This document shows positions 2,499 through 37,232 of a stretch of 64,000 nucleotides of DNA, one piece after another. Within the stretch, counting starts at the first letter, position 1, and each line of letters begins with the position of its first letter. The stretch spans positions 1 to 64,000 of the forward strand of contig CANQXF010000005.1 of assembly GCA_947627695.1 (NCBI GenBank), in the 5' to 3' direction. The notes beneath the pieces are model-generated. The model ran no database searches, had not been told where the DNA came from, and was given only the letters and a program-made list of their open reading frames with translations. Origin of the DNA: an uncultured Ruminiclostridium sp. Its GTDB lineage: Bacteria > Bacillota > Clostridia > Oscillospirales > Ruminococcaceae. The translations under genes and the position numbers were made by a program.

Positions 2499-3698
2499 TT
2501 ATTCGTTGGGCACAGTCGAAAGGCTTTCCATTACTTCAAAGGCTTTGTTTATCTGCGGGTCCTGAGAGCCCTCTCCTGTGGGGGCAAAATCAGGGTCGCC
2601 TGTTTGCTCCACGGAAAAGTCCACCTTTACCCCTCCGTCAAGGGAAGTGGTGACTGACGGTGCGAGCTTTGCAATTGTTATCACAAGCGCAGTTCCGTCG
2701 GAAAGGTGTCGCATTTCCCTGACGTAGCCGTTTCCTGCCGTCTGCTTGCCTACCAGCTTTGCGCCCGCATGATCCCTCAGACTTACTGCGAAAAGCTCGG
2801 CTGCTCCCGATGTGTTTTCGTCCACAAGCACGGCAATTGGAACGGTCACTGTCGCTTCCTCCTCGGTCTCAAGGAATTTTGCCGCAGTGTCGTCCTTGTA
2901 GCGGACGTTTGCGATCAGATGAGGGGCGACGAATGGCTCAAGCATAGGCTTTAAGCAGTCGTATATCCCGCCGGTTCCACGCAAGTCTATTATATAGCCC
3001 TGTACGTTCTTGGTCTGAAAATCCTGTACCGCCGCAGTGAACTGCTCGTCTGTCTGACCGTTCAGGTCGGATATGCGGATATAGCCGTATCCTGAGACTT
3101 CCATGGCGGTCACGGATTTTATGGTAAAGGAACGGCGCACCACGGTAAGGTCTTTGGTTTCGCCGCTGCGCTGAACAGTCAGGCGCACATTGGTGTTCTC
3201 GTCGCCGTCAAGGGAGGTTATTGCCGCTTCAGCGCCCGCTTCAAGCACGTTCGTTCCGTCTACGGCGGTGATTATATCTCCCACCTGTATATCCATCGTT
3301 GAGGCGGGGGAGCTTTCGTATATCCTGTCAACACGGATATAGCCGCTTTCTTCCTTGCTCACCTCAAGTCCTGTGGAGATAAGGGAGCCGCTTTCAAGCT
3401 GTTCTCTTTTATATGCTTCGGAGGCGGTGAGATATTCCGCGCCCGCATCGTCCAGACCGTCAACGTAACCGCCTATTACGCTGTTTATCAGCGTGCTTTC
3501 GTTTATGTCGTAGTATGAGGCGCTCCTTACATAAGAGTCTATCTCCTGTATCTTGGAATATATCTCCTCACGCTGTGTGACTCCGCCGATACGCTGATTG
3601 AACATATTGGTAGAGACCGTTATGGTAACGACGTAGGTTATCGCGCAAGCAATTGCGATAAGGCTTATCATTACCCCTATTGAAAACTTTTTGTTCAT
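2499..3698 (-). CDS. S41 (C-terminal processing) peptidase family protein, active site degenerate
   Basis: 399 residues with an N-terminal membrane anchor (about 8-28), a PDZ domain (about 105-190, 'SPASTMDIQVGDIITAVDG') and an S41 core. S41 enzymes use a Ser-Lys dyad 25 residues apart, in 'TASA(S/A)E' and 'TFGKG'. Here the segments read TSGAAELF (296-303) and TAGNGYVRE (320-328), which places Gly298 and Asn323 at the catalytic Ser and Lys positions. Ser297 is next to the expected site, but no Lys replaces Asn323. I infer a pseudopeptidase, perhaps a PDZ scaffold or regulator. It is the last cell-envelope gene of the ftsEX-M23 run, 12 bases after the second M23 gene. Confidence 0.88.
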   Translation of the reverse strand: MNKKFSIGVMISLIAIACAITYVVTITVSTNMFNQRIGGVTQREEIYSKIQEIDSYVRSASYYDINESTLINSVIGGYVDGLDDAGAEYLTASEAYKREQLESGSLISTGLEVSKEESGYIRVDRIYESSPASTMDIQVGDIITAVDGTNVLEAGAEAAITSLDGDENTNVRLTVQRSGETKDLTVVRRSFTIKSVTAMEVSGYGYIRISDLNGQTDEQFTAAVQDFQTKNVQGYIIDLRGTGGIYDCLKPMLEPFVAPHLIANVRYKDDTAAKFLETEEEATVTVPIAVLVDENTSGAAELFAVSLRDHAGAKLVGKQTAGNGYVREMRHLSDGTALVITIAKLAPSVTTSLDGGVKVDFSVEQTGDPDFAPTGEGSQDPQINKAFEVMESLSTVPNE

Positions 3699-3710: not shown

Positions 3711-5033
3711 TTACGGCAAGGTCACATACCCGAAGGGATCCTGCGCTATGCCGTTTATTCTGACTTCAAAATGCAGGTGAGGTCCTGTGGACCAGCCCGT
3801 GCTTCCCACTGCGCCGATAACGTCGCCCTGCTGTACCTGCTGTCCCTCGTAAACGTAAAGGGCGGAGCAGTGCCCGTAAAGGGTGGAATAACCGTCGCCG
3901 TGGTCTATAACGATATATTTTCCGTAGCTGTAACCGGGTATGTAATCATTTTTTGCTTTTATTACCGTTCCCGCTTTTGACGCATAAATATCCGTGCCGT
4001 TTATGCCGCCGTCGCCTATGTCTATGCCCGAATGACTTCCGCCTCTCCACGGGTCATAGCCGAAATATGTGGTTATGTAATGAAAGTTCCGTCCTACCGG
4101 CCACATCCACTCGCCTACTTCATATTCCTGCTGGCTGTTTTGCTGAGCCTCTTGTATCATGCGCTGGATCTCAGCCTCGTATGCCTCAGCTTCCTCTTTG
4201 TTTATCTTTTTTTCGTTTTCAAGAGCCTGCTGTCTGTCCTCGTAATTGCTGATGGCGCTGCTGTACTGATTATACTCGCTGCTGTACTGATTGCTCAGCG
4301 CCTGCTCCTCGGACTGCTTGTTCTCAAGGTCCTGCTTTTCGTATTCAAGCTCGTCCTGCTCCGCCATAAGCGTACTGCGGTCGGAATCAAGCTGGGCAAC
4401 GTCGTTTTCCAGATCCTTTATCTTCTGCTCGGTATCGCTTATCGCCTGTTTCAGCTCGTCCATAAAGCGGGTGTTCTGCTGTGAGATGTTCACAAACAGC
4501 TTTGTCCTTACAAGCAGGTCGTAAATGTCGCTGGATTCGGACAAAACGGAGAAGATGTCCACGTTGTCGGTGACGTACATTGCGTGTACTATCTCGCCGA
4601 AACGCTTTAAATTTTCCTCGTTTTCAGCTTTAAGCCCGTCTATGTCCGTCTGCTTTGCGGATATCTCCGCTTCCTTGTCGGAAATGTTCTGTGAAAGAGT
4701 GTCTATCTCCGACTGCTTTTCCGCAATAGCCTCATTCTGATAGGAAATGAGGTAGTTGTAGTAATCTATAGTGTCCTTGGTATTTTGCAGCTTTTCCCAT
4801 GCAAGGTCCTGCAATTTTTCGTTTTCCGCTATCTCGCTGTCAAGTCCCGCAAGCTCGTTGTCTATTTGCTGATTGCGTTCCTCAAGCTGAGCCAGCATAT
4901 CCTCAAGATCGCTGACGCTGGAGGCGCTGACGCTTGCGGATTTTCCCGACGATGTTATTATACCGCAGGACAATCCCAGAATAATGGCGAAAGACGCAAG
5001 CTGCGTGATTTTTTTTACGGTTTTTCTTTTCAT
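3711..5033 (-). CDS. EnvC-like coiled-coil M23 murein hydrolase (second copy)
   Basis: 440 residues from the ATG at 5033, which has GAGGAAAAAACT in front; an in-frame GTG at 5060 lies inside the previous gene and is less likely. A signal peptide (about 1-33) is followed by a long Gln/Glu-rich coiled coil (about 40-300), then a LytM/M23 domain. The zinc ligands are visible as 'HSGIDIGDGG' (HxxxD) and 'GPHLHFEVR' (HxH), so unlike E. coli EnvC the site looks catalytically competent. This architecture (coiled coil plus hydrolase beside ftsEX) fits a peptidoglycan endopeptidase controlled by FtsEX. It is a close paralogue of the gene just upstream. Confidence 0.9.
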   Translation of the reverse strand: MKRKTVKKITQLASFAIILGLSCGIITSSGKSASVSASSVSDLEDMLAQLEERNQQIDNELAGLDSEIAENEKLQDLAWEKLQNTKDTIDYYNYLISYQNEAIAEKQSEIDTLSQNISDKEAEISAKQTDIDGLKAENEENLKRFGEIVHAMYVTDNVDIFSVLSESSDIYDLLVRTKLFVNISQQNTRFMDELKQAISDTEQKIKDLENDVAQLDSDRSTLMAEQDELEYEKQDLENKQSEEQALSNQYSSEYNQYSSAISNYEDRQQALENEKKINKEEAEAYEAEIQRMIQEAQQNSQQEYEVGEWMWPVGRNFHYITTYFGYDPWRGGSHSGIDIGDGGINGTDIYASKAGTVIKAKNDYIPGYSYGKYIVIDHGDGYSTLYGHCSALYVYEGQQVQQGDVIGAVGSTGWSTGPHLHFEVRINGIAQDPFGYVTLP

Positions 5034-5050
5034 AGTTTTTTCCTCGATAT

Positions 5051-6358
5051 TCAATACCACGGGTGATCAACGTAATTGAACGGGTCGTCGGCAACGCCGT
5101 CAACTCTCACTTCAAAATGCAGGTGAGGCCCCGTTGACCAGCCCGTGCTTCCCACTGCACCGATAACGTCACCCTGATTTACCTGCTGTCCCTCGTAAAC
5201 GTACAGTGCGGCGCAGTGTCCGTAAAGGGTGGAATAGCCGTCGCCGTGGTCGATGATTATGTACTTTCCGTAGCTTACGCCGTCAACGTCGTCGTTGAAC
5301 GCCTTTATCACCGTTCCGCTTTTTGAGGCGTATATGTCGGTCCAGAAAATGCCGCCGTCGCCTATATCTATGCCGCTGTGCCAGCGCCATTTGCCGTCCA
5401 GGTAATCGTCGCCGAAATCGGTGGTAATGTAGCCGAACTGCTGTCCCACAGGCCAGAGCCATTCGCCCTGCTGGTACTGCTGATCGCTGCCCTGCTGAGC
5501 CTGCCTGATCAGCTCCTGTATCTCCTCCTCAATGCGGGCTATCTCCTCCTCGTTGGCGTACTGCTCCTGATGAAGGTCGTCGATATTCTGCTGAAGGCTG
5601 CTCACCTTGTCGGAATAGTAATCATAATCCGCTTTGTATTCGTCGGCAAGCGTCTGCGCCGACTGTTTCTTCTGGTCAAGCTGTTCCTTTTCAGCCTGAA
5701 GCTCCTCCCTGCTGCTTATGAGCAGGGCACGGTCAGCTTCAAGCTGAGAAACGTCCTGTTCAAGCTGTTTTTCCTTTTGCTCCGCCTCGTCCATATCCTG
5801 CATAAGGCTGTCCATAAAGGCGCTGCTGTCACGGGCGATGTTGAAAAGCATTTTAGCTCTTATCAGCAGGTCGTAAAAGTCGGAAGCGTTCAGCAGGACG
5901 GACATATAATCAATGCCGCCGCTGACATAAAGGGCGTGCATTATCTCTCCGAAGCGGGCGAGATTCTCCTGATTTTCCTCACTGAGTCGTGCTACCTCCT
6001 GCTCCTTTTCCGCTATTTCCTGCTCCTTTGCAGAAATTTCGGCGTCAAGAGAGTCGATCTCCGTCTGCTTTTCGGCTATGAGAGCGTTCTGCTCGTAAAT
6101 CAGGTCGCTGTAAAGGGAAAGCAGTTCCTGCGCATTGGACAGCTTTTCAAGATAAAGCTGCTGCAATTCCTTGTTCTCGGCAATACTGCCGCTTGCGGAG
6201 GCGATAAGCTCATCTATCTCGTCGTTGCGCTGTTCGAGCTGCTGCTGTTTTTGCTCAAGCTCCTGCTGAGTCTGCTCTGCATAAACGGCGGGACTTAACA
6301 GCAAACCTGCCGCTGTAAACAGGGACAGCGCTTTTATAAAAAGTTTTCCTTTTTTCAT
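5051..6358 (-). CDS. EnvC-like coiled-coil M23 murein hydrolase (first copy)
   Basis: 435 residues from the ATG at 6358, two bases after the ftsX stop, with AAAGG inside the end of ftsX as ribosome site. It has a signal peptide (about 1-25), an extended coiled coil rich in Gln/Glu (about 28-290) and a C-terminal M23 domain with intact ligands in 'HSGIDIGDGG' and 'GPHLHFEVR'. The tight coupling to ftsEX suggests direct activation by the FtsX extracellular loop, as known for FtsEX-controlled hydrolases (EnvC, CwlO, PcsB, RipC). The C-terminal domains of the two copies are nearly the same, while the coiled coils have diverged. Confidence 0.91.
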   Translation of the reverse strand: MKKGKLFIKALSLFTAAGLLLSPAVYAEQTQQELEQKQQQLEQRNDEIDELIASASGSIAENKELQQLYLEKLSNAQELLSLYSDLIYEQNALIAEKQTEIDSLDAEISAKEQEIAEKEQEVARLSEENQENLARFGEIMHALYVSGGIDYMSVLLNASDFYDLLIRAKMLFNIARDSSAFMDSLMQDMDEAEQKEKQLEQDVSQLEADRALLISSREELQAEKEQLDQKKQSAQTLADEYKADYDYYSDKVSSLQQNIDDLHQEQYANEEEIARIEEEIQELIRQAQQGSDQQYQQGEWLWPVGQQFGYITTDFGDDYLDGKWRWHSGIDIGDGGIFWTDIYASKSGTVIKAFNDDVDGVSYGKYIIIDHGDGYSTLYGHCAALYVYEGQQVNQGDVIGAVGSTGWSTGPHLHFEVRVDGVADDPFNYVDHPWY

Positions 6359-6360
6359 AA

Positions 6361-7260
6361 CTATACCTTTAAGTGCTTGCCCATACTGAGGATAGTTCCG
6401 AAAGCGCCCAGAAATGCACCTGCAAGGCAGTTGAAGCCCAAAGCTATCCACATTATATCGTTAAACTGTATCACGTTCACAAGTCCCAATACCTCCCAGA
6501 TGGTGAGGTCACCTGCGAAGAAGGATACAAGAGATTCGTACGCCAGTTTTGTGAGCAGCCATGCGACTGCTCCCGAAATTATACCGATAAACATTCCCTC
6601 GATGAAGAATGGAAATTTTATGAAAAAGTTGGTGGCGCCAACGCTTTTCATTATCCCTATCTCCTTGCGGCGGACGAAAACGCTTGTCCTGGTGGAGTTG
6701 TACACGATGACGATACATACCACTATCAGCGCTATCAGGACTGCGCCGCCGATTATTGCAAGGGTAGTCCTCAGGCTCACAAGAACGGAGGCAAAGTCGT
6801 AGGGAGCGCTTACGCTTTCAACGCCCTCGATAGCTTCAAATGCGGCTCTCGCCTCGTCCATTTTGGAAATGTCGGAAAGGGTCACTCTGAAGGTGTCGGG
6901 CATGGGGTTTTCCGTAAGGGCGTCAAAAAGCTCGGAATATTCCTCCATTTTCGCTTTCTGGTCCTCCCACGCCTCTTCCTTGGAATAAAATACCACTTCC
7001 CCAACGTAGGACTGGGTTTTTATAGCGCTTTCCACCGAGTCAAGGCGAGCCTGGTCGGCGTCGCTGACGTATACAAGCACCTCGTTCTTTTCCTCGGCGC
7101 TTTCTATCACTATGTTTATGTCGGCGGCAACAAGCAGGCTGAGGCTTATCAGCAGAAGGCTCACCATGATTATGCAGAAGCTGGCAAAGGACATCATTCT
7201 GTTGCGCCATACGGAAACGACGCCCTGCTTCATCAGGTATGAAAAATTACTCCCCCTCAT
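6361..7260 (-). CDS. ftsX: Cell division protein FtsX (permease-like)
   Basis: 299 residues, typical length. It is the membrane half of FtsEX, which couples the divisome to extracellular wall hydrolases. The first transmembrane helix (about 20-45) is followed by an extracellular domain (about 50-165), then three helices; 'RRKEIGIMKSVGATNFFI' is the conserved cytoplasmic coupling segment. Its start overlaps the 3' end of ftsE by 14 bases, showing translational coupling. The next gene starts two bases after its stop. Confidence 0.95.
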   Translation of the reverse strand: MRGSNFSYLMKQGVVSVWRNRMMSFASFCIIMVSLLLISLSLLVAADINIVIESAEEKNEVLVYVSDADQARLDSVESAIKTQSYVGEVVFYSKEEAWEDQKAKMEEYSELFDALTENPMPDTFRVTLSDISKMDEARAAFEAIEGVESVSAPYDFASVLVSLRTTLAIIGGAVLIALIVVCIVIVYNSTRTSVFVRRKEIGIMKSVGATNFFIKFPFFIEGMFIGIISGAVAWLLTKLAYESLVSFFAGDLTIWEVLGLVNVIQFNDIMWIALGFNCLAGAFLGAFGTILSMGKHLKV

Positions 7261-7954
7261 CTTCGTCCTCCTCGCCCTCTATATAATCGTCAAAGGCAAC
7301 GGAACCGCTGCTGAGGTTGATTATCCTGCCGCCGAAATACTGCACGAGATCGTGCTCATGCGTTACCATTATGACGGTAGTTCCGCATTTGTTGATGTCC
7401 TTTAAAAGCTCAACCATTTCATAGGACAAGGCGGGGTCGATGTTTCCCGTAGGCTCGTCCGCTATGATAAGACCGGGGTCTATTGCAAATGCTCTTGCGA
7501 TAGCAACGCGCTGCTGCTCACCGCCCGAAAGTTGGGTGGGCTTTACCTTTGCTTTGTCCGCCAGTCTTACAAGATTAAGCACATAAGGCACTCTCTGGCG
7601 GATATATTTGTTTGATTTGTCGATAACTCTCAGAACGAAAGCTACGTTCTCATACACTGTCATATCGGGGATAAGGCGGAAATCCTGAAATATCATTCCC
7701 ACCGAGCGACGGAAGTAGGGCAGTTTTCTCTTTTTTATCTTGGAAAGATTGTAACCGTTGACAAAAACTCTTCCGTTCGTGGGGGTAAGCTCGCGGGTGA
7801 GCAGCTTTAAAAGCGTGCTTTTCCCTGCTCCGCTGTTTCCCACCACAAAGACGAATTCGCCGTCGTTTATGCGGATATTGACGTTGTGCAAAGCGTCTAC
7901 TCCGCCTTTTCCGCCGTCCTTGTAATGAACGTCTACATTCTTTAATTCAACCAT
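7247..7954 (-). CDS. ftsE: Cell division ATP-binding protein FtsE
   Basis: 235 residues from the ATG at 7954, which aligns with the family start '[11 protein letters not shown]'; the upstream extension is Pro/Gly-rich and unlikely. ABC ATPase motifs are intact: Walker A 'GNSGAGKST', Q-loop 'GMIFQDFRL', signature '[14 protein letters not shown]' and Walker B '[10 protein letters not shown]'. A short acidic C-terminal tail ([10 protein letters not shown]) extends past the usual end. It heads the ftsE-ftsX-M23-M23-S41 cluster. Confidence 0.95.
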
Positions 7955-28180: not shown

Positions 28181-28217
28181 AAAAAATAAACACGGTTTTT
28201 ACCGTGTTTATTTTTTT
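28181..28217. terminator. Strong bidirectional terminator
   Basis: AAATAAACACGGT pairs with ACCGTGTTTATTT over a T4 loop, flanked by A-runs on one side and T-runs on the other. It ends the aryl-acid operon and the converging TetM-Rae1 gene. Confidence 0.92.
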
Positions 28218-30802
28218 CACTTTTTCAAACGGTTCATCTCAATGTATTCCCGTATCGCTTTTTCAGCCTCTTTTACTTCCTCGTGAAGCTCGGAAGCGGA
28301 AACACGGAAAGCGCCGCTGCCGAAGATAACGCTTTGCTCTGCTCCGTCGGAGGTGGCGACGCGTACCTTGCTGTTTTTGGCAAGGTCGTGGGAAAGGCGC
28401 TCTATATAAGCGTCGGCGGTTTCGTTTTCCTTGGTGTAGACTATGCTGACGTTGCCTGCGGTCTGGTTTTCCCTCACCTCGCCTTTCACCTTGTAAGCGT
28501 CAAAGACGAGGATAAGCTCACAGCGGGTGAAGCCCTGGTAGTTGCAGAGAATGTTGATAAGGCGATTCCTTGCGATGTCAAGGCTTTTTTCCGCCTCGGC
28601 GCGAAGCTCCTCCCAGGCGAAAATTATGTTGTAGCCGTCAACGATAAGATATTCGGGACCTGTTTTCACGGGTATGCGGCTTTTGTATTTTATCGGCTTT
28701 TCCGCAGGGCGCATAGCTTTGCGGCGGTCACGGTCGATCTTTCCGTAGGTGCGCTCGAATATCTCAAGCAGCTCCTTGTCCTCCGCCGCCCGATCAACGT
28801 AGCTTTCAGCACGGCGATATGAAAGGATACGGCGCTGTTCCTCACGGGCGGTCTTAAGGCAGGAGGGCAGGTGCATATACTCGCTCACCTTGTCCCAGCG
28901 GACGTTAAAGCCTGCTCCGTGGGCGCAGAAGATCGAGTCAGCGGAATTTTCGATATCACCGTCGCAGTTGTAGTTTATCTCCCTTATCACCTCGTCGGCG
29001 TCGGCGCACTCAGTGTATCCGCCGAAGGAAAAGAACAGCTTTCCTCTGCCGCTTGTGTAGCCTGACAGCTCTCGCTGGTAGCCGCTTATTTTTGCGGCGG
29101 GGCAGGTGCCTTTTATCACGGCGTTTTCGCCCTCAGTGTATGGAGTTTCAAAATTTCCGTTCATTCGGCGTATGTCGGTGAGTGCTCTGCCTGAACAGTC
29201 CTGAGGGAGTATCAGGGTGAAATTGCAGTAGGGCTCAAGGAGTATGCTTTTTGCACTGCGAAGTCCCTGACGAACTGCTCTGTAAACCGCTTGACGGAAG
29301 TCCCCGCCCTCGGTGTGCTTCAGGTGGGAACGCCCTGAGCAGAGGGTTATTTTTATATCGGTTATAGGGGAGCCTGTGAGTACGCCAAGATGAGTTTTTT
29401 CAGCAAGGTGAGTGAGGACAAGGTTCTGAAAGCTGCGGTCGAGGACATTGTCGCTGCATAAATTGTCAAATTGCAATCCCGAGCCTCTCGGCAGGGGTTC
29501 AAGGAGCAGATGTACCTCAGCATAGTGGCGGAGAGGCTCATAATGTCCAACGCCCTCAACAGGTGCGGCTATGGTTTCCTTGTAGGCGACCTTTCCCTGT
29601 CCGAAATCTACTTTTATTCCAAATCTTTCCTCGATCATTCCGCGGAGAATTTCCAGCTGTACCTCTCCCATAAGTCGGACAAATATTTTCCCCACGGCGC
29701 TGTTCCATATAACGTGGAGCGCGGGGTCTTCCTCCTCAAGGCGCTTTAAATTTTCCAGCAGCTTGTACACGTCGGCGTCGGCAGGCGGCTCCACGGAATA
29801 GGTCATCACAGGCTCAAGAACTGGGGAAAAGGAGTTTTCCTCAGCGCCAAGTCCCTGTCCCGCATACGAAAAGGAAAGCCCTGTCACGGCGCAGATACTT
29901 CCTGCGGGAACGCTGTCAGCGGTGGTGTATTTGTTTCCCGTATAAAGGCGTATCTCGTTTATTTTTTCGGCGTGAAGCTCGCCGTCGGAGCCGATATATT
30001 CTATCTGCTCACGGACGCTGAGAGAGCCGCCTGTGATCTTAAGTGAGGAAAGGCGCTTGCCCTTGTCGTCGGAGGAAATTTTGTAAATAACTGCGCCAAA
30101 TTCTAAGCGGCGGGGCGGCTCCTGCGCAAAGCGGTCAAGCAGGCTCATAAGCTCCTCTATTCCCTGCATTTTAAGGGCTGATCCGAAAATACAAGGGAAA
30201 ATATGGCGCTTTGCAACGGCGGCGGCTATGGTATTGTCGGCGGCTTTCCCGCTGTCAAGATACTCCTCTGCAATGTCGTCGTCCAGCATGGCACATTCCT
30301 CAAAAAATCTTTCCGAAGAGGTGTCGGTAAAATCCACGCAGGAAAAGGCAAGGCGGGTCTTTATATCCTCAAGAGCCCTTTGCCCGTCGGCGTGGGGCAT
30401 ATCCATCTTGTTTATGAAAATAAAGGCGGGAACTCCGTATTCGTCCAACAGGCGCCATATCGTTTCGGTGTGGCTCTGAACGCCGTCGGTGCCGCTTATC
30501 ACGATTATCGCAAAGTCCAGCGCCTGAAAGGTGCGCTCGGTCTCAGCGGAAAAGTCGACGTGACCGGGCGTGTCCAGCAGGGTGTAGGTTCCGCCGTTTA
30601 TCTCAAATTCCGCACGGTGAGCGAACACGGTTATGCCCCTCGTCTTTTCGGCTTTGTCGGTGTCAAGGCAGGAGCTTCTGTCGTCAACTCTTCCCCGCTT
30701 CCTCGTTTCTCCTGCGGCAAAAAGCAGGGCTTCGGAAAGAGTGGTCTTTCCTGCGTCAACGTGAGCAGTTATTCCTAAAACGACGCGCTTTTTCTGTTCC
30801 GT
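28217..30802 (-). CDS. EF-G/TetM-like ribosome GTPase fused to a Rae1 (YacP) NYN endonuclease
   Basis: 861 residues from an ACG at 30802. Residues 1-690 follow the tetracycline ribosomal-protection/EF-G plan: G1 'AHVDAGKTT' (13-21), G3 'DTPGH' (77-81), G4 'NKMD' (131-134), then domains II-V ending 'LSGYTSGRGKLFFSF'. Residues 717-861 are a YacP/Rae1-type NYN nuclease: 'YLIVDGYNII', 'LVFDAY', 'NETADAYIE' and 'VATSDGAEQ' hold the acidic residues. Rae1 cuts mRNA in the ribosomal A site in B. subtilis; TetM-like GTPases act there too. I infer a ribosome-targeted mRNA-cleavage or rescue factor. Tetracycline protection cannot be concluded. Confidence 0.88.
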   Translation of the reverse strand, partial: TEQKKRVVLGITAHVDAGKTTLSEALLFAAGETRKRGRVDDRSSCLDTDKAEKTRGITVFAHRAEFEINGGTYTLLDTPGHVDFSAETERTFQALDFAIIVISGTDGVQSHTETIWRLLDEYGVPAFIFINKMDMPHADGQRALEDIKTRLAFSCVDFTDTSSERFFEECAMLDDDIAEEYLDSGKAADNTIAAAVAKRHIFPCIFGSALKMQGIEELMSLLDRFAQEPPRRLEFGAVIYKISSDDKGKRLSSLKITGGSLSVREQIEYIGSDGELHAEKINEIRLYTGNKYTTADSVPAGSICAVTGLSFSYAGQGLGAEENSFSPVLEPVMTYSVEPPADADVYKLLENLKRLEEEDPALHVIWNSAVGKIFVRLMGEVQLEILRGMIEERFGIKVDFGQGKVAYKETIAAPVEGVGHYEPLRHYAEVHLLLEPLPRGSGLQFDNLCSDNVLDRSFQNLVLTHLAEKTHLGVLTGSPITDIKITLCSGRSHLKHTEGGDFRQAVYRAVRQGLRSAKSILLEPYCNFTLILPQDCSGRALTDIRRMNGNFETPYTEGENAVIKGTCPAAKISGYQRELSGYTSGRGKLFFSFGGYTECADADEVIREINYNCDGDIENSADSIFCAHGAGFNVRWDKVSEYMHLPSCLKTAREEQRRILSYRRAESYVDRAAEDKELLEIFERTYGKIDRDRRKAMRPAEKPIKYKSRIPVKTGPEYLIVDGYNIIFAWEELRAEAEKSLDIARNRLINILCNYQGFTRCELILVFDAYKVKGEVRENQTAGNVSIVYTKENETADAYIERLSHDLAKNSKVRVATSDGAEQSVIFGSGAFRVSASELHEEVKEAEKAIREYIEMNRLKK

Positions 30803-30833: not shown

Positions 30834-30862
30834 ATTATACAGTATATTTTGCGGATTGGCAA
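30834..30862 (-). promoter_or_regulatory. Sigma-A promoter of the TetM-Rae1 gene
   Basis: On the minus strand TTGCCA (30862-30857), 17-base spacer, TATAAT (30839-30834). Transcription should begin near 30827. The in-frame ATG at 30955 is therefore upstream of the transcript. Confidence 0.8.
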
Positions 30863-30900
30863 GCAAAAAATAAGCAGCCTGCTTTTCAGGCTGCTTATTC
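30863..30900 (-). terminator. Terminator of the Cys-repeat surface protein gene
   Basis: ATAAGCAGCCTG (30870-30881) pairs perfectly with 30887-30898 over a 5-base loop, with T6 after it on the minus strand. It abuts the next promoter directly. Confidence 0.88.
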
Positions 30901-30911
30901 GTTTTATCTTT

Positions 30912-33900
30912 TTACTTTCTGTTTTTCTTGGATATTCCCAGAACGGTAACTGCAAGTGCTGTAACTACAAAAGGAATTACAGGGAGAGTGCTTCCCGTTG
31001 CGGGGGGAACATCGTTATCTGTGGTATCGTCAGGCTTTGTTGTGTCGTCAGGCGGTGTGGCTATCTCATCTTCAACGTAAACCACTGCGTAAGCAGAGAA
31101 TTTGTCGGTGAGGAAGGTGATGGTCGCGGGGTCGTCGTCGATATCCGCGAGTATTTCCGCCTTGCCGTCGTGTACTCTTACAACAGCGTACGTTTTGCCG
31201 CCCAAAAGATCTTCAGGAATTGCTAAGGTTATCTTTACCGCCTTTGAAAGCTGGGTTACTATGGTGGCGGTGCTGTCAACGTACTTGGTGATGTCTATTT
31301 CAAGATACTGTCCGAGAACGTAATCTTCGCCGATCAGCTCTTCGGCAAGCTGCTTGTCGCTGTCGGAAACGGAGTCTGTTCCGTCCTTTACGGAAAGAAC
31401 AACCTTTATGTCCGCACCCTCGTCTCTTGCCGCCTTGTCCTCATCGGTGAGAACAGCGTCCTCAAGGTCCTTTATTTCCTCATCTGTCATTTCAACAGAG
31501 GGAGCGTTTTCATCAGTTTCAGGCACAAATTCAAGGTCGCCCTGTGTAGCGGGGATAACTTCGCCTTTTTCAAGAGTCTCTCCGCAAACCTCACATACAA
31601 CGTCGCCTGTGTAGCCGTCCTCGGTAGGAGTTGCAGGCTTCTCGCCAACAAGCTCTGAGGAGGGAGTGTGATGTCCCGGTGCGGGAATAGCGCGGCTGTC
31701 CTTGACTGCGTCGCAGTTCTTGCAGTGAATGGATTCGCTGCCGTCGGTAAGGCAGGTCATTTCCTTATCCACCGTGTAGTGGTCTTCCCAGTCGTGTCCG
31801 TTTGCCGCAAGTCCCTTGGTTTCGGTAACTCCGCAGACTTTACAAGTCCTCTGCTGTGTTCCCTCGTCGTCACAATCTGGGCTGTCTATGGTTTCCCATT
31901 CGCCCCAATCATGTCCGAGGGCGGGGATAACTTCGCTGTCCTTGGTAGCGGAGCAGCTTACGCAGTGGATAGACTGGCTTCCCTCTGTGGTGCAGGTGGG
32001 TTCTACGTCAACGGTTGCGTGGTCTTCCCAGGTATGGCCGTTTGCTTCAAGTCCCTTGGTTTCGGTAACGCCGCAGACCTTACAAGTCCTCTGCTGTGTT
32101 CCCTCGTCGTCGCAGTCGGGGCTTTCGATTGTTTCCCACTCGCCCCACTCGTGTCCGAGGGCGGGGATAACTTCGCTGTCCTTAGTTGCTGAGCAGTTTA
32201 TGCAGTGGATAGACTGGCTTCCCTCTGTGGTGCAGGTTGGCGCTACGTCAACGGTTGCGTGGTCTTCCCAGGTGTGACCATTTGCCGCAAGTCCCTTGGT
32301 CTCGGTAACGCCGCAGACTTTACAAGTTCTCTGCTGTGTTCCCTCATCGTCGCAGTCGGGGCTGTCTATGGTTTCCCATTCGCCCCAGTCGTGACCGAGG
32401 GCTGGGATAACTTCGCTGTCCTTAGTTGCAGAGCAGTTTACACAGTGGATAGACTGGCTGCCCTCTGTGGTGCAGGTGGGTGCTACGTCAACTGTTGCGT
32501 GGTCTTCCCAGGTATGGCCGTTTGCTTCAAGTCCCTTGGTTTCGGTAACGCCGCAGACTTTACAAGTTCTCTGCTGTGTTCCCTCGTCGTCGCAGTCAGG
32601 GCTTTCGATTGTTTCCCATTCGCCCCAGTCGTGTCCGAGGGCGGGGATAACCTCGCTGTCCTTAGTTGCAGAACAGTTTACGCAGTGGATAGACTGGCTG
32701 CCCTCTGTGGTGCAGGTGGGTTCTACGTCAACGGTTGCGTGGTCTTCCCATGTATGGCCGTTTGCTTCAAGTCCCTTGGTTTCGGTAACGCCGCAGACCT
32801 TACAAGTTCTCTGCTGTGTTCCCTCGTCGTCGCAATCGGGGCTTTCTATCGTTTCCCATTCGCCCCAGTCATGTCCGAGAGCAGGGATGATTTCACTGTC
32901 CTTGGTAGCGGAGCAGTTTACGCAGTGGATAGACTGGCTGCCCTCTGTGGTGCAGGTGGGTGCTACGTCAACGGTCGCATGATCTTCCCATGTATGGCCG
33001 TTTGCTTCAAGTCCCTTGGTTTCGGTAACGCCGCAGACCTTGCAAGTCCTCTGTTGTGTTCCCTCGTCGTCGCAGTCGGGGCTGTCTACGGTTTCCCACT
33101 CGCCCCAGTCGTGACCGAGGGCGGGAACGACTTCGCTGTCCTTGGTAGCAGAGCAGTTTACGCAGTGGATAGACTGGCTTCCCTCTGTGGTGCAGGTGGG
33201 TTCTACGTCAACGGTTACGTGGTCTTCCCAGGTATGGCCATTTGCTTCAAGTCCCTTGGTTTCGGTAACGCCGCAGACCTTACAAGTTCTCTGCTGTGTT
33301 CCCTCATCGTCGCAATCAGGGCTGTCTATGGTTTCCCATTCGCCCCAGTCGTGTCCGAGGGCGGGAACGACTTCGCTGTCCTTGGTGGCAGAGCAGTTTA
33401 CGCAGTGGATAGACTGGCTGCCTTCTGTGGTGCAGGTAGGTTCAATATCGACAGTTGCGTGGTCTTCCCATGTGTGTCCGTTTGCCGCAAGTCCGTTGGT
33501 TTCCTTTATACCGCAGACTTTACAAGTTCTCTGCTGTGTTCCCTCGTCGTCGCAGTCGGGGCTTTCAACAGTTTCCCATTCGCCCCAGTCGTGTCCGAGG
33601 GCGGGGATAATTTCGCTGTCCTTAGTTGCTGAGCAGTTTATGCAGTGGATAGACTGGCTTCCCTCTGTGGTGCAGGTGGGCGCTACGTCAACGGTTGCGT
33701 GGTCTTCCCATGTATGGCCGTTTGCTTCAAGTCCCTTGGTTTCGGTAACGCCGCAGACTTTACAAGTTCTCTGCTGTGTTCCCTCATCGTCGCAATCAGG
33801 GCTGTCTATGGTTTCCCATTCGCCCCAGTCATGTCCGAGGGCGGGGATAACCTCGCTGTCCTTTGTAGCGTCGCAGTTTACGCAGTGGATAGACTTGCTT

Positions 33901-36900
33901 CCGTCTGTGGTGCAGGTGGGAGCCTTGTCTATTGTGTATTCCTCATTCCACTTGTGTCCTGACGCAAGAAGTCCTCTTGTCTCGGTGGCGGAGCAAACCT
34001 TGCAGGTGCGCTGTTCGGTTCCTTCATCGTCGCAATCAGACATCTTTATGACAGTCCACTCGCTCCAGTCGTGACCGAGGGCAGGAATGACCTCACTGTC
34101 CTTGGTAACGCTGCAGTTTACGCAATGAACGGACTTGCTTCCCTCTGTGGTGCAGCTGGGCTCAACGTCGACTGTTGCGTGATCCGCCCAGGTGTGACCG
34201 TTTGCTTCAAGTCCTCTGGTTTCGGTAACGCCGCATACGGTGCAGCTGTGTTGCTGAGTGCCGCTGTCGTCACAGTCGGGGCTTTCTACGGTTTCCCATT
34301 CGCCCCAGGTGTGGCCTGCGGGGGAAACGACAAAGGGTACTCTGTGAAGCTCCTCTCTGCAATTTTTGCAGTAGATGACTTCATCATAGCTGCCGCCTTC
34401 AGTGCAGGTGGCTAATTTTTCGTTTTCCTTTACAGGATCGTCGTGGGCGTGTTCCTTTGCGGGAATGACACGCTGTTCCTTTACTGCGCCGCATACTGAG
34501 CAGCGGATAGATTCGCTGCCTTCGGTGGTGCAGGTAGGCTCTTTATCAATTGTGTAATCGGTATTCCACTTGTGGTCAGTGTTGGTTGAGCCTCTTTGCT
34601 CAACATGTCCGCAAACGGAACATTCGTGCTGCATAACGCCTGAGGGAAGCTCATTCCATTCGCCGTAGGTATGACCTAAAGCGGGTATTACCTCAGGATT
34701 TCTGAGAGTTTCGCCACATTCCTGGCAGACGTAGCAGTGGATAACTCTTCCGTCTGCGGTACAGGTAGCGGACTTTTCGATCTCATCTGTGGGTTCGCCG
34801 AATGTGTGTTCCTTTGCGGGAATAACTTCCTGATCCTTCGTCTGGTCGCAGTTTTTGCAGTGAACGGACTGACTGCCCTCTGAGGTGCAGGTAGGAGCAG
34901 AGTCGATCGTGGGATGATCCTCCCAGTCGTGACCGTTGGGGTCAAGATTCTTTGTTTCAGTCAATCCGCATCTGCTGCAAGTTCTCTTCTGGCTGCCGCT
35001 GTCGCTGCAGTTGGGAGATTCCACCGTTTCCCAATCCTTCCAGTTATGACCGAGTGGAGTAATCTGTCTTAATTCCGTCTGATATTTGCCGCCGCATTCT
35101 TTGCAGCAGATGAATAAATATTCAAGACCGGGCTCGGTGCAGGTGGGATGTGTGATCTGTTCGGTTATTTTATACCACACTGTATGTCCGCCTTTAAGGG
35201 TAACGGTGCGTGTGACGGTATTTCCCGCCTTGTCGGTGACGGTTATAACATATTGCTTAGGTTCGCCTGTGGTGTTCTCTATCTTGTAGCTTGACTGAAG
35301 CTGATTTACAGGTGCGGAAGTATCAACGGAAACGATAGAAGGTCCGTCCTCAACGCCGGGATCGCCCTGAGCGCTGCTGTCGAACAAAACCTCTCCGTTG
35401 ACTTCGATCTTTGCTACTGCTCCGTTGTCGGTCACGGAAAATACTGCGTCAGCACAGTATTCGCCGTTGTCGGCTACGCCCGTGATAACGGGGCTGTCAA
35501 AGTCGATCATAATACCTGTGGTGCTGGCGTAGGAGGAATTTCCCACCTCGTCAGTGACCTTGACGTATACTATCGCCTTTTGCTGATCTTTAAGATAAAT
35601 GCTGTCCTTGTATTCCTCCCAGAGGATCCCTTTTTCAAGGTCTTCGTCAGCTATTTTTTTATCGTTTATGTAATAGGATATCGTCAACTTGTCATTGACG
35701 TCATCGTCCGAGGCTGTTACACTTATTGTCTGAGGTTCGTTGAAATAAAGGTCGAAGGTGGGATTTTCGTGAAGAGCAGCCCATTTGTGCTCGCCCATCT
35801 CTATTAGTATAGTGGGGGCGGTGATGTCGAGGTAGACAGCTTCGTATGTCCTGTCGCCTGTGCTGCCGGTTTTGATAGTTATCTCAGAGGCTTCGCCTGT
35901 GGAGTCGTCTTCCTGTGAGGAAGTCCAGCCGACGAATCTGTACCCCTCTTTTTCGGGAGAAGGCAGGGTTATGTCTTCTGAAGTGACGTCGTAGGCTCTT
36001 GTGTACTTGTTGTCTTCTTTTTTCCAATCATCGCCTTTGATAACGCCGCCTTTGGTTTCAAGGGTTATGGTGTATTCTATGGGAGTTCTTTCGCTGTAAA
36101 GGGAAATGTCTTCGGTTACTGTGTCGCTGTCGAAGTTCCATTCGGTTGAATGATCCTCATCCTTAAACCATCTGTCACCTGAGGAATACCCCTTATCAGA
36201 ATATTCCACCTTTGGGACGGTCAGGTGTTTGCCTTTGTTTGCAAAGTCTACAGCAACCGGTATTTCACCCAGCATATAGGTTACCTTGTATACCCTGTTT
36301 TCATCTTTGCCTATTTCAAGAACTGGAGCAGCATCTCCGCCTTCACCCAGCTTCTGAGTCCAAATGACGGTTTCCTGTCCGTTCTGAAGTCCCCACGCCG
36401 CAGAGCCGCTTTTCAGTTCATCAGTGGTGAGGCCGTAAACGGTGTCGCTTTTGCCGCTGAGTATTGCAATAGAGGTATTGCTTTTGTTGAAATAGCAGTT
36501 TTCAACCTTTCCCGCTGTGCCGACAAGTCCTGCAATTGCGCTGAAGGAGCCGCTGCCCTTTACATCAGCATAGCAGTTTTTGATAGTGCCGTCGCATACA
36601 CCCGCGATACCGCCTACCGAGAAAGAGCCGCTGACATTTCCGGCGATAAGGCAGTTCTCTATGGTGCCGTCGTTCATACCGCAGATGATCCCGACAAAAA
36701 AGCCGGGTATATCGATGTTGCCCTTAACGCTCAGATTTTTTATTGTACCGTCGTTCTTGCCGAACAGTCCGAATGTGTACAGACGTCCGGAGTCGAATGT
36801 ATTGCTTTTGTTGTTTATGGTTAATCCTGATATTGTGTGTCCTTGTCCGTCAAAAACGCCTTTAAAAGATATAGTTTTTGACGAGTCAGACGAGCTTGAC

Positions 36901-37232
36901 GTGGAATAATAACCGCTTGAATTTCTGCCGATAGGATACCAGACAGTACCACTGTCCAGCGTGATATTATCGGTCAGCTTGTAATGAGCCTCCGAATATT
37001 TTCCGTCGGTATCGTTTTTGTTAATTGCATCTCTCATATTCTCAAGGTCTTTTTGATCCTTGATAACATAAGGATCTTCAGCTGTTCCTTTGCCGGTCAG
37101 TGAGAATGTAAAACTCTCCTCAACGGCAGCTTCGGCATGATGCGTCAGACTACCTGCGGGGATAGCAGCAAGCGCTAACGCTGAGGCCGTGATAATGCTG
37201 ATGATACGTTTAAACTTGTTGCCTGATAACAT
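30912..37232 (-). CDS. Giant sortase-anchored surface protein with Cys-rich tandem repeats
   Basis: 2106 residues. After a signal peptide (about 1-35), GLUG-like repeats occur at about 140-255 ('GLFGKNDGTIKNLSV', 'GGIAGVCDGTIKNC'). InlB-type B-repeats (about 320-475) and an Ig-like region follow. Then comes a long array of about 40-residue units, each Cys-x8-Cys-x2-Cys plus a later 'GH' (about 700-1880), which could be metal-binding. A C-terminal domain ends in a sorting signal 'VPPATGS', a hydrophobic helix and KKNRK. PPxTG resembles signals used by the C. difficile-type class B sortase. No sortase lies in the window. Ligand and function are unknown; it is exported and wall-anchored by prediction. 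Confidence 0.85.
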   Translation of the reverse strand: MLSGNKFKRIISIITASALALAAIPAGSLTHHAEAAVEESFTFSLTGKGTAEDPYVIKDQKDLENMRDAINKNDTDGKYSEAHYKLTDNITLDSGTVWYPIGRNSSGYYSTSSSSDSSKTISFKGVFDGQGHTISGLTINNKSNTFDSGRLYTFGLFGKNDGTIKNLSVKGNIDIPGFFVGIICGMNDGTIENCLIAGNVSGSFSVGGIAGVCDGTIKNCYADVKGSGSFSAIAGLVGTAGKVENCYFNKSNTSIAILSGKSDTVYGLTTDELKSGSAAWGLQNGQETVIWTQKLGEGGDAAPVLEIGKDENRVYKVTYMLGEIPVAVDFANKGKHLTVPKVEYSDKGYSSGDRWFKDEDHSTEWNFDSDTVTEDISLYSERTPIEYTITLETKGGVIKGDDWKKEDNKYTRAYDVTSEDITLPSPEKEGYRFVGWTSSQEDDSTGEASEITIKTGSTGDRTYEAVYLDITAPTILIEMGEHKWAALHENPTFDLYFNEPQTISVTASDDDVNDKLTISYYINDKKIADEDLEKGILWEEYKDSIYLKDQQKAIVYVKVTDEVGNSSYASTTGIMIDFDSPVITGVADNGEYCADAVFSVTDNGAVAKIEVNGEVLFDSSAQGDPGVEDGPSIVSVDTSAPVNQLQSSYKIENTTGEPKQYVITVTDKAGNTVTRTVTLKGGHTVWYKITEQITHPTCTEPGLEYLFICCKECGGKYQTELRQITPLGHNWKDWETVESPNCSDSGSQKRTCSRCGLTETKNLDPNGHDWEDHPTIDSAPTCTSEGSQSVHCKNCDQTKDQEVIPAKEHTFGEPTDEIEKSATCTADGRVIHCYVCQECGETLRNPEVIPALGHTYGEWNELPSGVMQHECSVCGHVEQRGSTNTDHKWNTDYTIDKEPTCTTEGSESIRCSVCGAVKEQRVIPAKEHAHDDPVKENEKLATCTEGGSYDEVIYCKNCREELHRVPFVVSPAGHTWGEWETVESPDCDDSGTQQHSCTVCGVTETRGLEANGHTWADHATVDVEPSCTTEGSKSVHCVNCSVTKDSEVIPALGHDWSEWTVIKMSDCDDEGTEQRTCKVCSATETRGLLASGHKWNEEYTIDKAPTCTTDGSKSIHCVNCDATKDSEVIPALGHDWGEWETIDSPDCDDEGTQQRTCKVCGVTETKGLEANGHTWEDHATVDVAPTCTTEGSQSIHCINCSATKDSEIIPALGHDWGEWETVESPDCDDEGTQQRTCKVCGIKETNGLAANGHTWEDHATVDIEPTCTTEGSQSIHCVNCSATKDSEVVPALGHDWGEWETIDSPDCDDEGTQQRTCKVCGVTETKGLEANGHTWEDHVTVDVEPTCTTEGSQSIHCVNCSATKDSEVVPALGHDWGEWETVDSPDCDDEGTQQRTCKVCGVTETKGLEANGHTWEDHATVDVAPTCTTEGSQSIHCVNCSATKDSEIIPALGHDWGEWETIESPDCDDEGTQQRTCKVCGVTETKGLEANGHTWEDHATVDVEPTCTTEGSQSIHCVNCSATKDSEVIPALGHDWGEWETIESPDCDDEGTQQRTCKVCGVTETKGLEANGHTWEDHATVDVAPTCTTEGSQSIHCVNCSATKDSEVIPALGHDWGEWETIDSPDCDDEGTQQRTCKVCGVTETKGLAANGHTWEDHATVDVAPTCTTEGSQSIHCINCSATKDSEVIPALGHEWGEWETIESPDCDDEGTQQRTCKVCGVTETKGLEANGHTWEDHATVDVEPTCTTEGSQSIHCVSCSATKDSEVIPALGHDWGEWETIDSPDCDDEGTQQRTCKVCGVTETKGLAANGHDWEDHYTVDKEMTCLTDGSESIHCKNCDAVKDSRAIPAPGHHTPSSELVGEKPATPTEDGYTGDVVCEVCGETLEKGEVIPATQGDLEFVPETDENAPSVEMTDEEIKDLEDAVLTDEDKAARDEGADIKVVLSVKDGTDSVSDSDKQLAEELIGEDYVLGQYLEIDITKYVDSTATIVTQLSKAVKITLAIPEDLLGGKTYAVVRVHDGKAEILADIDDDPATITFLTDKFSAYAVVYVEDEIATPPDDTTKPDDTTDNDVPPATGSTLPVIPFVVTALAVTVLGISKKNRK
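31741..34380 (-). repeat. Eleven-unit 240-bp tandem repeat inside the surface protein gene
   Basis: The same start, CCCTCgTCGTCgCAgTCgGG, recurs at 31861, 32101, 32341, 32581, 32821, 33061, 33301, 33541 and 33781, and in diverged form at 34021 and 34261: an exact 240-bp period with no indel. Each unit encodes 80 residues, two half-repeats with Cys-x8-Cys-x2-Cys. The first nine (30.9-kb side) are nearly identical; those toward the N-terminus drift. This is recent unit amplification, and copy number may vary between strains or be misassembled. Confidence 0.95.

Follow-up and report, generated by a model that had tools for sequence, protein, structure and literature searches.

A clostridial fusion of an EF-G/Tet-like GTPase with a Rae1-type nuclease that may take over the job of separate Rae1

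We describe a gene on the minus strand of a 64,000-nucleotide (nt) stretch of DNA from an uncultured Ruminiclostridium sp. (contig CANQXF010000005.1, positions 1 to 64,000; hereafter the window, in whose positions coordinates are given unless another locus is named), which encodes a translation GTPase and a Rae1/YacP-type NYN nuclease in one polypeptide. An earlier reading made from the sequence alone, without database searches (the sequence-only reading), had proposed that a single frame joins a five-domain GTPase to a C-terminal NYN nuclease, and this is what we found: the frame is free of stop codons from 30802 down to 28217 in an open reading frame check, and the Pfam domains follow one another along it in order. 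The features of the coding region are as follows (aa, amino acids).

28217–30802, minus strand: fusion coding region, 861 aa counted from the ACG codon, stop included
30122–30790, minus strand: GTP-binding domain, aa 5–227 (Pfam GTP_EFTU, 8.5e-51; AHVDAGKTT, DTPGH and NKMD intact)
29858–30100, minus strand: EF-G domain II, aa 235–315 (Pfam EF-G_D2, 24.5 bits, slightly below the cut-off of 27)
29600–29815, minus strand: EF-G domain III, aa 330–401 (Pfam EFG_III)
29249–29596, minus strand: EF-G domain IV, aa 403–518 (Pfam EFG_IV)
29294–29335, minus strand: tip of domain IV, GRSHLKHTEGGDFR, aa 490–503 (from the alignment of fusions)
29000–29242, minus strand: EF-G domain V, aa 521–601 (Pfam EFG_C)
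28859–28972, minus strand: C-terminal extension of the GTPase with FCAHGAG...W..V..YMH, aa 611–648, where NYN-less relatives stop
28652–28858, minus strand: linker of ~70 aa, aa 649–717, containing a conserved EL..IF.RTYG element
28232–28648, minus strand: Rae1/YacP NYN nuclease domain, aa 719–857 (Pfam NYN_YacP, 6.2e-50; D722, D768, D797 and D819)

The nuclease part proved to be of the Rae1 type, as had been supposed. Its NYN_YacP domain scores 169.9 bits, above the Pfam cut-off of 24.6, and aligns with residues 3–138 of the 181 of Bacillus subtilis Rae1 (PDB 5mq8 and 5mq9; E = 1.9e-28), keeping the acidic DGYN, FDA(Y), ETAD and TSD motifs that the sequence-only reading had picked out. The NYN domain of Rae1 has the same acids, and in the fusion these four residues (D722, D768, D797 and D819) are invariant in 79/79 aligned sequences, a set comprising the window and those 78 of 80 fetched relatives that pass a selection pattern, of which D722 formed part. 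The two relatives that fail this pattern still have the NYN motifs, and one of them is a gene broken into two frames. The differences from Rae1 lie in context and extent: Rae1 is a separate protein of ~170 aa, encoded in relatives in an rlmB-rae1-sigH slot, whereas the fused domain forms the tail of a GTPase encoded at another site and stops short of the end of the Pfam model. It matches model positions 1–147 of 166 in the genome search, and none of the NYN matches listed for its own order reaches position 166; fused NYN domains in many other Clostridia extend to positions 164–166 among the matches listed. The linker varies between 60 and 107 aa (median 75) across the 79 fusions, 63/79 of which contain the EL..IF.RTYG element by a strict pattern, and the main GTP motifs, including H81 of DTPGH, are invariant in an alignment of 64 full-length fusions. 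GTPase, linker and nuclease are all under strong purifying selection, with ratios of nonsynonymous to synonymous substitution (dN/dS) of 0.048, 0.057 and 0.061, respectively, between the window and its nearest relative (L031, 98% identical; the same genome as G213 and L242).

The description of the GTPase as TetM/EF-G-like holds for its layout and fails for identity with TetM. A five-domain EF-G-like layout with intact GTP motifs is present, and Tet(M), Tet(O) and Tet(W) share it, with ~28–30% identity across the GTPase. The best NCBIfam match of the fusion is tet_protect, but its score of 405.5 bits lies far under the cut-off of 775, which control tet(M) (878.6 bits) and tet(W) (819.2 bits) proteins pass. 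The tip of domain IV contains SHLKHTEGGDF in the window, against YYSPVSTPADF in both tet(M) and tet(W), and has the form H.KHT[ED]GGDF in 79/79 fusions. This form is not universal, because the fusions of three distant genomes (G705, G868 and G247) have other tips, likewise unlike that of tet(M); those at L152, L154 and L157 read GHNKYTD... (family f164) or GKHTEPPDF (G247). In an 82-row tree, 78 members of the subfamily form one group, from which tet(M), tet(W) and two EF-G rows are separated with a support of 91 (not starred). By cut-off, tip and tree, the fusion is not a Tet(M)-type protein, and it differs further from the Tet proteins in its added C-terminal extension, linker and nuclease. 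It also stays below the curated cut-off for EF-G (TIGR00484, 293.6 against 659.4 bits), and since its own genome encodes four other EFG_C proteins, of which two resemble EF-G by alignment, it is not the host's EF-G.

The subfamily to which the GTPase belongs has an extension after domain V with the pattern FC..G.G...W...MH. Its NYN-less members, from Bacilli and some Clostridia (for example, L. salivarius WP_052757141, labelled TetM/TetW/TetO/TetS family), have a related tip and an ending of the same type, but stop there at ~650 aa, with neither linker nor nuclease. One such relative, on L. salivarius plasmid pR1 (L133, positions 5983–7917), is annotated as a member of the TetM/TetW/TetO/TetS family, has a score of 272 bits where the family cut-off is 1100, and adjoins rpsN. 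A zinc site formed by C599, C626, H628 and H644 was considered and dropped; the position of H628 is often lysine in the Bacilli forms and is arginine in one fusion.

The architecture itself has been known since 2015. Atkinson (2015, BMC Genomics, PMC4342817) describes ten Clostridiales species in which Tet proteins have gained a YacP-like NYN RNase domain, and suggests a possible part for them in resistance. Compared by description, the fusion fits this account of a Tet-like GTPase extended by a YacP-like NYN domain, and the two are almost certainly the same family. What we report differs in that the range is far wider than ten species, the GTPase falls outside the Tet(M) type, and a displacement of rae1, inferred from gene slots, takes the place of drug resistance. 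The statement in the sequence-only reading that no characterised example is known can be kept for function and has to be given up for architecture. Literature searches, whose reach did not include Condon 2018 on Rae1 distribution, which may describe the fusion, found in print neither a test of its function nor any mention of its distinctness from Tet(M)-type proteins, its broad distribution, the pattern at the rae1 slot or the ACG start.

The proposal made in that paper, that such a protein protects against tetracycline or another drug by means of its RNase activity, has in its favor the Tet-like five-domain layout, tet_protect as the best family match and one full-length fusion found in a record labelled plasmid. 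The same family match is a failing one at the cut-off that genuine resistance proteins pass, and the domain-IV tip and the tree likewise set the fusion apart from tet(M) and tet(W). Nor is there a conserved operon: besides the fusion, the commonest neighbour cluster occurs in only 11/80 loci, in a comparison that did not search for mobile genes as such. We therefore regard drug protection as improbable.

The fusion is widespread, as a search across Clostridia of the kind suggested by the sequence-only reading made clear. In its order, the GTPase is found in 112/247 genomes and PF05991 in 105/247, all within the 112; the fusion is carried by 105/247 genomes, and an assembly accident as its source is thus ruled out. 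In the class, 250/393 genomes contain PF05991, and the 150 matches listed divide into 81 fused, 65 standalone and 4 apparently cut by contig ends, with the fusion occurring in many families among these matches. Family counts of the two kinds in the class rest on those 150 matches, per-genome match counts cover all genomes, and in some genomes the profile searches scored the first 7–11 candidates only. A sample of the phylum contains PF05991 in 163/299 genomes and the GTPase in 21/299, of which 18 are fused and 3 NYN-less. As for separate Rae1, for which a search of the genome had also been suggested, none was found: the single PF05991 match of the genome is the fusion.

A genome with the fusion hardly ever has an intact separate rae1 as well. 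Only one of the 250 class genomes with PF05991 (G517) has both, with an intact rae1 in the usual slot in addition to the fusion. More than one PF05991 match was obtained in 5/250 class genomes; in G363, G414 and G446 the second match is under the family cut-off, and G597 combines a fusion with fragments of rae1 (residues 6–38 and 104–162) in the rlmB-sigH slot. The broken gene of this fusion-bearing genome lies at positions 3198–3490 of locus L233. No genome of the 163 with PF05991 in the phylum sample has both kinds, and the only one with two matches (G816) has two standalone genes.

Several families contain fused as well as standalone kinds: f39, f40, f45 and f64 among the class matches listed, and f150 in the phylum sample. 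We compared the slot in 8 standalone genomes, out of 11 listed for f39, f40, f64 and f150, and in 8 fusion genomes, a sample drawn from outside the window's own genome. In 8/8 standalone genomes rae1 adjoins sigH, and in 6/8 rlmB is within the fetched stretch, directly upstream in 5 and ~1.9 kb upstream in G317. In 6/8 fusion genomes (f39, f40, f44, f64, f68 and f150), rlmB is followed by sigH with no rae1 match in between; the remaining two (f27 and f45) have no rlmB beside sigH and are uninformative. Judged by gene order, rae1 has been lost from the rlmB-rae1-sigH slot in several fusion-bearing lineages. As to DISPLACEMENT of Rae1, a genome in which the fusion had replaced rae1 would be expected to show this slot pattern. 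The loss of rae1 may instead have preceded the arrival of the fusion, but G517 and G597 look like steps in between. Collectively, the distribution and the slots suggest that the fusion takes over the job of separate Rae1.

In G447 the arrangement is different again: a NYN of the fused type stands alone, outside the usual slot, and a NYN-less GTPase is encoded separately at another site of the genome. The lone NYN groups with the fused ones on the tree with weak support. It is encoded as a 190-aa protein (L232, positions 4790–5359) beside what appear, by eye, to be aspartyl-tRNA-synthetase and gatCAB genes.

Most likely, the fusion displaced Rae1 and, as we infer, does its job of ribosome-dependent cleavage of messenger RNA (mRNA), with the GTPase as the docking part. 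The explanation that we favor, and hold to be probable, is a ribosome-quality-control factor: the EF-G/Tet-like GTPase would dock on ribosomes, and the tethered Rae1 nuclease would cut the mRNA of those that have paused. Standalone rae1 lies near rlmB and often mrnC, which we take by function to be genes of ribosomal RNA (rRNA) metabolism, and this location would also suit a nuclease that trims rRNA or transfer RNA (tRNA) instead of mRNA. Such trimming was an early proposal for YacP, as quoted in PMC4342817. Against it, Rae1 is described in PMC6613710 and PMC12320835 as an endonuclease that acts on mRNA in the A site and may gain access more readily at stalled ribosomes, and the fused domain retains the Rae1 motifs, so a trimming role seems to us quite improbable. 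Because of this description of Rae1, a ribosome-binding GTPase would be a natural docking part for it.

Several observations weigh against the quality-control explanation. Seven of the 112 GTPase genomes of the order have neither the NYN domain nor any PF05991 match, which shows that the GTPase can do without the nuclease, and the system as a whole is dispensable, as 135/247 genomes of the order have neither part. Exclusion within the order is uninformative because no standalone Rae1 was found in any of its 247 genomes, and G517 makes clear that fusion and separate Rae1 are able to coexist. Separate Rae1 mostly occurs without the GTPase (32/39 clostridial genomes). In Bacilli, Rae1 is present in 44/46 genomes with the NYN-less GTPase and in 33/34 controls; GTPase and Rae1 are not enriched for co-occurrence, and we rejected a Rosetta-stone signal there. 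Two further GTPase-positive Bacilli, G791 and G814, have Rae1 in the phylum sample. The existence of GTPases without NYN and of Rae1 without GTPase thus speaks against a strict need for the pair, and the NYN-less forms point to a role of the GTPase of its own.

These same forms lend some weight to an explanation in which the nuclease does Rae1's job alone, the GTPase has an independent task, such as helping stuck ribosomes as a spare EF-G-like factor, and the two are fused simply because joint expression is convenient. All GTPases found in Bacilli are NYN-less (49/378 genomes pass the threshold, 48 of them clearly), 7/39 Clostridia with separate Rae1 have a NYN-less GTPase as well, and the order contributes its seven genomes without PF05991; in G447, the two parts are encoded apart. 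The conservation of the linker element argues for a joined state that is used as such, and the occurrence of the fusion across many clostridial families suggests that the joining matters. Independent halves are, in our judgment, rather unlikely.

Trees of selected rows (68 for NYN, 82 for the GTPase) bear on the origin of the fusion, with deep forks weak in both; rows were chosen by motif pattern, and five (L152, L154, L156, L157 and L213) of the 90 loci L137–L226 are not in the trees. A single origin of the fusion is not rejected by the approximately unbiased test (p-AU 0.593 for the NYN tree and 0.461 for the GTPase tree). A NYN-less form of the window's family (L187) and Lactobacillaceae-like forms fall among fused rows in the GTPase tree with weak support, which suggests later loss of the NYN domain in these forms. 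The older state may have been either fused or NYN-less.

A ribosomal GTPase joined to an RNase could also shut translation down by cutting mRNA, as a toxin-like or anti-phage effector. Homologues of the fusion occur in two unannotated faecal records named 'Bacteriophage sp.', MT835563.1 and MT835514.1; they are full-length, with 52% and 47% identity, and possibly host DNA beside prophages. PADLOC gave no match, on which ground an anti-phage system was rejected, and no widely conserved partner gene appears in the 80 loci. A toxin would also fit poorly with strong purifying selection and with the apparent replacement of a housekeeping gene, and we give this explanation very little credence.

The surroundings of the gene contain the following further features.

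30800–30802, minus strand: probable ACG start codon, 12 codons before AHVD in the window, in L031 and in L239
30810–30815, minus strand: AGGAGG ribosome-binding site, 7 nt ahead of the ACG, read from the sequence
30834–30862, minus strand: promoter-like TTGCCA-17-TATAAT, a consensus match only, with 11/12 positions; 1 found against a mean of 1.6 in shuffles
30868–30900, minus strand: terminator-like hairpin of the upstream gene, read from the sequence
28181–28216, no strand assigned: inverted repeat with T-runs, read from the sequence, between the fusion and a convergent ACT-domain gene

The fusion gene probably starts at the ACG. One correction to the sequence-only reading is that the codon at its 30802 boundary is an ACG, lying 7 nt after AGGAGG. 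Downstream of the hairpin and ahead of the conserved N-terminus, the sole common in-frame start is a TTG at 30860–30862, 20 codons before the ACG. It falls within the promoter-like −35 box and is the less likely start, because a transcript begun at that promoter would not include a codon inside the hexamer. L031 carries the same ACG and the same in-frame TTG. In L239, from a more distant genome of the genus, the ACG follows a stop codon at a distance of 11 codons, and the frame from that stop to AHVD contains no ATG, GTG or TTG; its relative L238 has ATG GAA GAA, placed one codon upstream of where L239 reads ACG GAA GAA.

From the end of the promoter-like site to the ACG there are 31 nt. Transcription from this site, if it occurs, would give a 5' leader of ~25 nt, too short for an attenuator; no Rfam match for an RNA leader was obtained at gathering scores in the window. 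Together with the distance from Tet(M)-type proteins, this leaves the antibiotic-response role entertained in the sequence-only reading without support. On one side of the fusion lie 2-oxoacid-oxidoreductase-like (POR), AMP-binding and ACT-domain genes. At 30912–37232 on the minus strand lies a gene for a predicted surface protein of 2106 aa, with many near-identical cysteine-bearing repeats (for example, ETKGLEANGHTWEDH) and a C-terminal hydrophobic tail, and L031 has a relative of this protein upstream of its fusion.

A role at the ribosome is the most plausible one for the fusion. In the quality-control explanation that we favor, the GTPase part would dock on the ribosome and recruit the nuclease, which would cut mRNA in or near the A site, as Rae1 does. 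Because an EF-G-like domain IV would itself fill the A site, domain IV and nuclease are expected to act in turn; alternatively, the linker may bring the nuclease within reach of the mRNA once GTP is hydrolysed. More tentatively, and with the odds against it, one can imagine a GTP-driven rescue cycle carried out by this one protein: the EF-G-like body would enter a paused ribosome, where the H.KHTEGGDF tip would probe or clear the A site, and hydrolysis would then swing the body out, so that the tethered nuclease could cut the exposed codon and prepare the ribosome for rescue. In infC, which encodes IF3, a non-standard start codon holds the level of the protein down through start-codon stringency, and in this cycle the ACG start would limit the level of the fusion in the same way.

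Our findings suggest that some Firmicutes genes labelled as TetM-family tetracycline resistance do not belong to that class (the label checked was that at L133), and mislabelled genes of this family matter for counts of resistance genes. We know of no settled account of how Rae1 is brought to the right ribosomes. Lineages in which Rae1 is fused and the separate gene has been dropped make the GTPase a natural candidate for a delivery or partner factor, and the fusion and separate Rae1 form a pair in which this can be tested.

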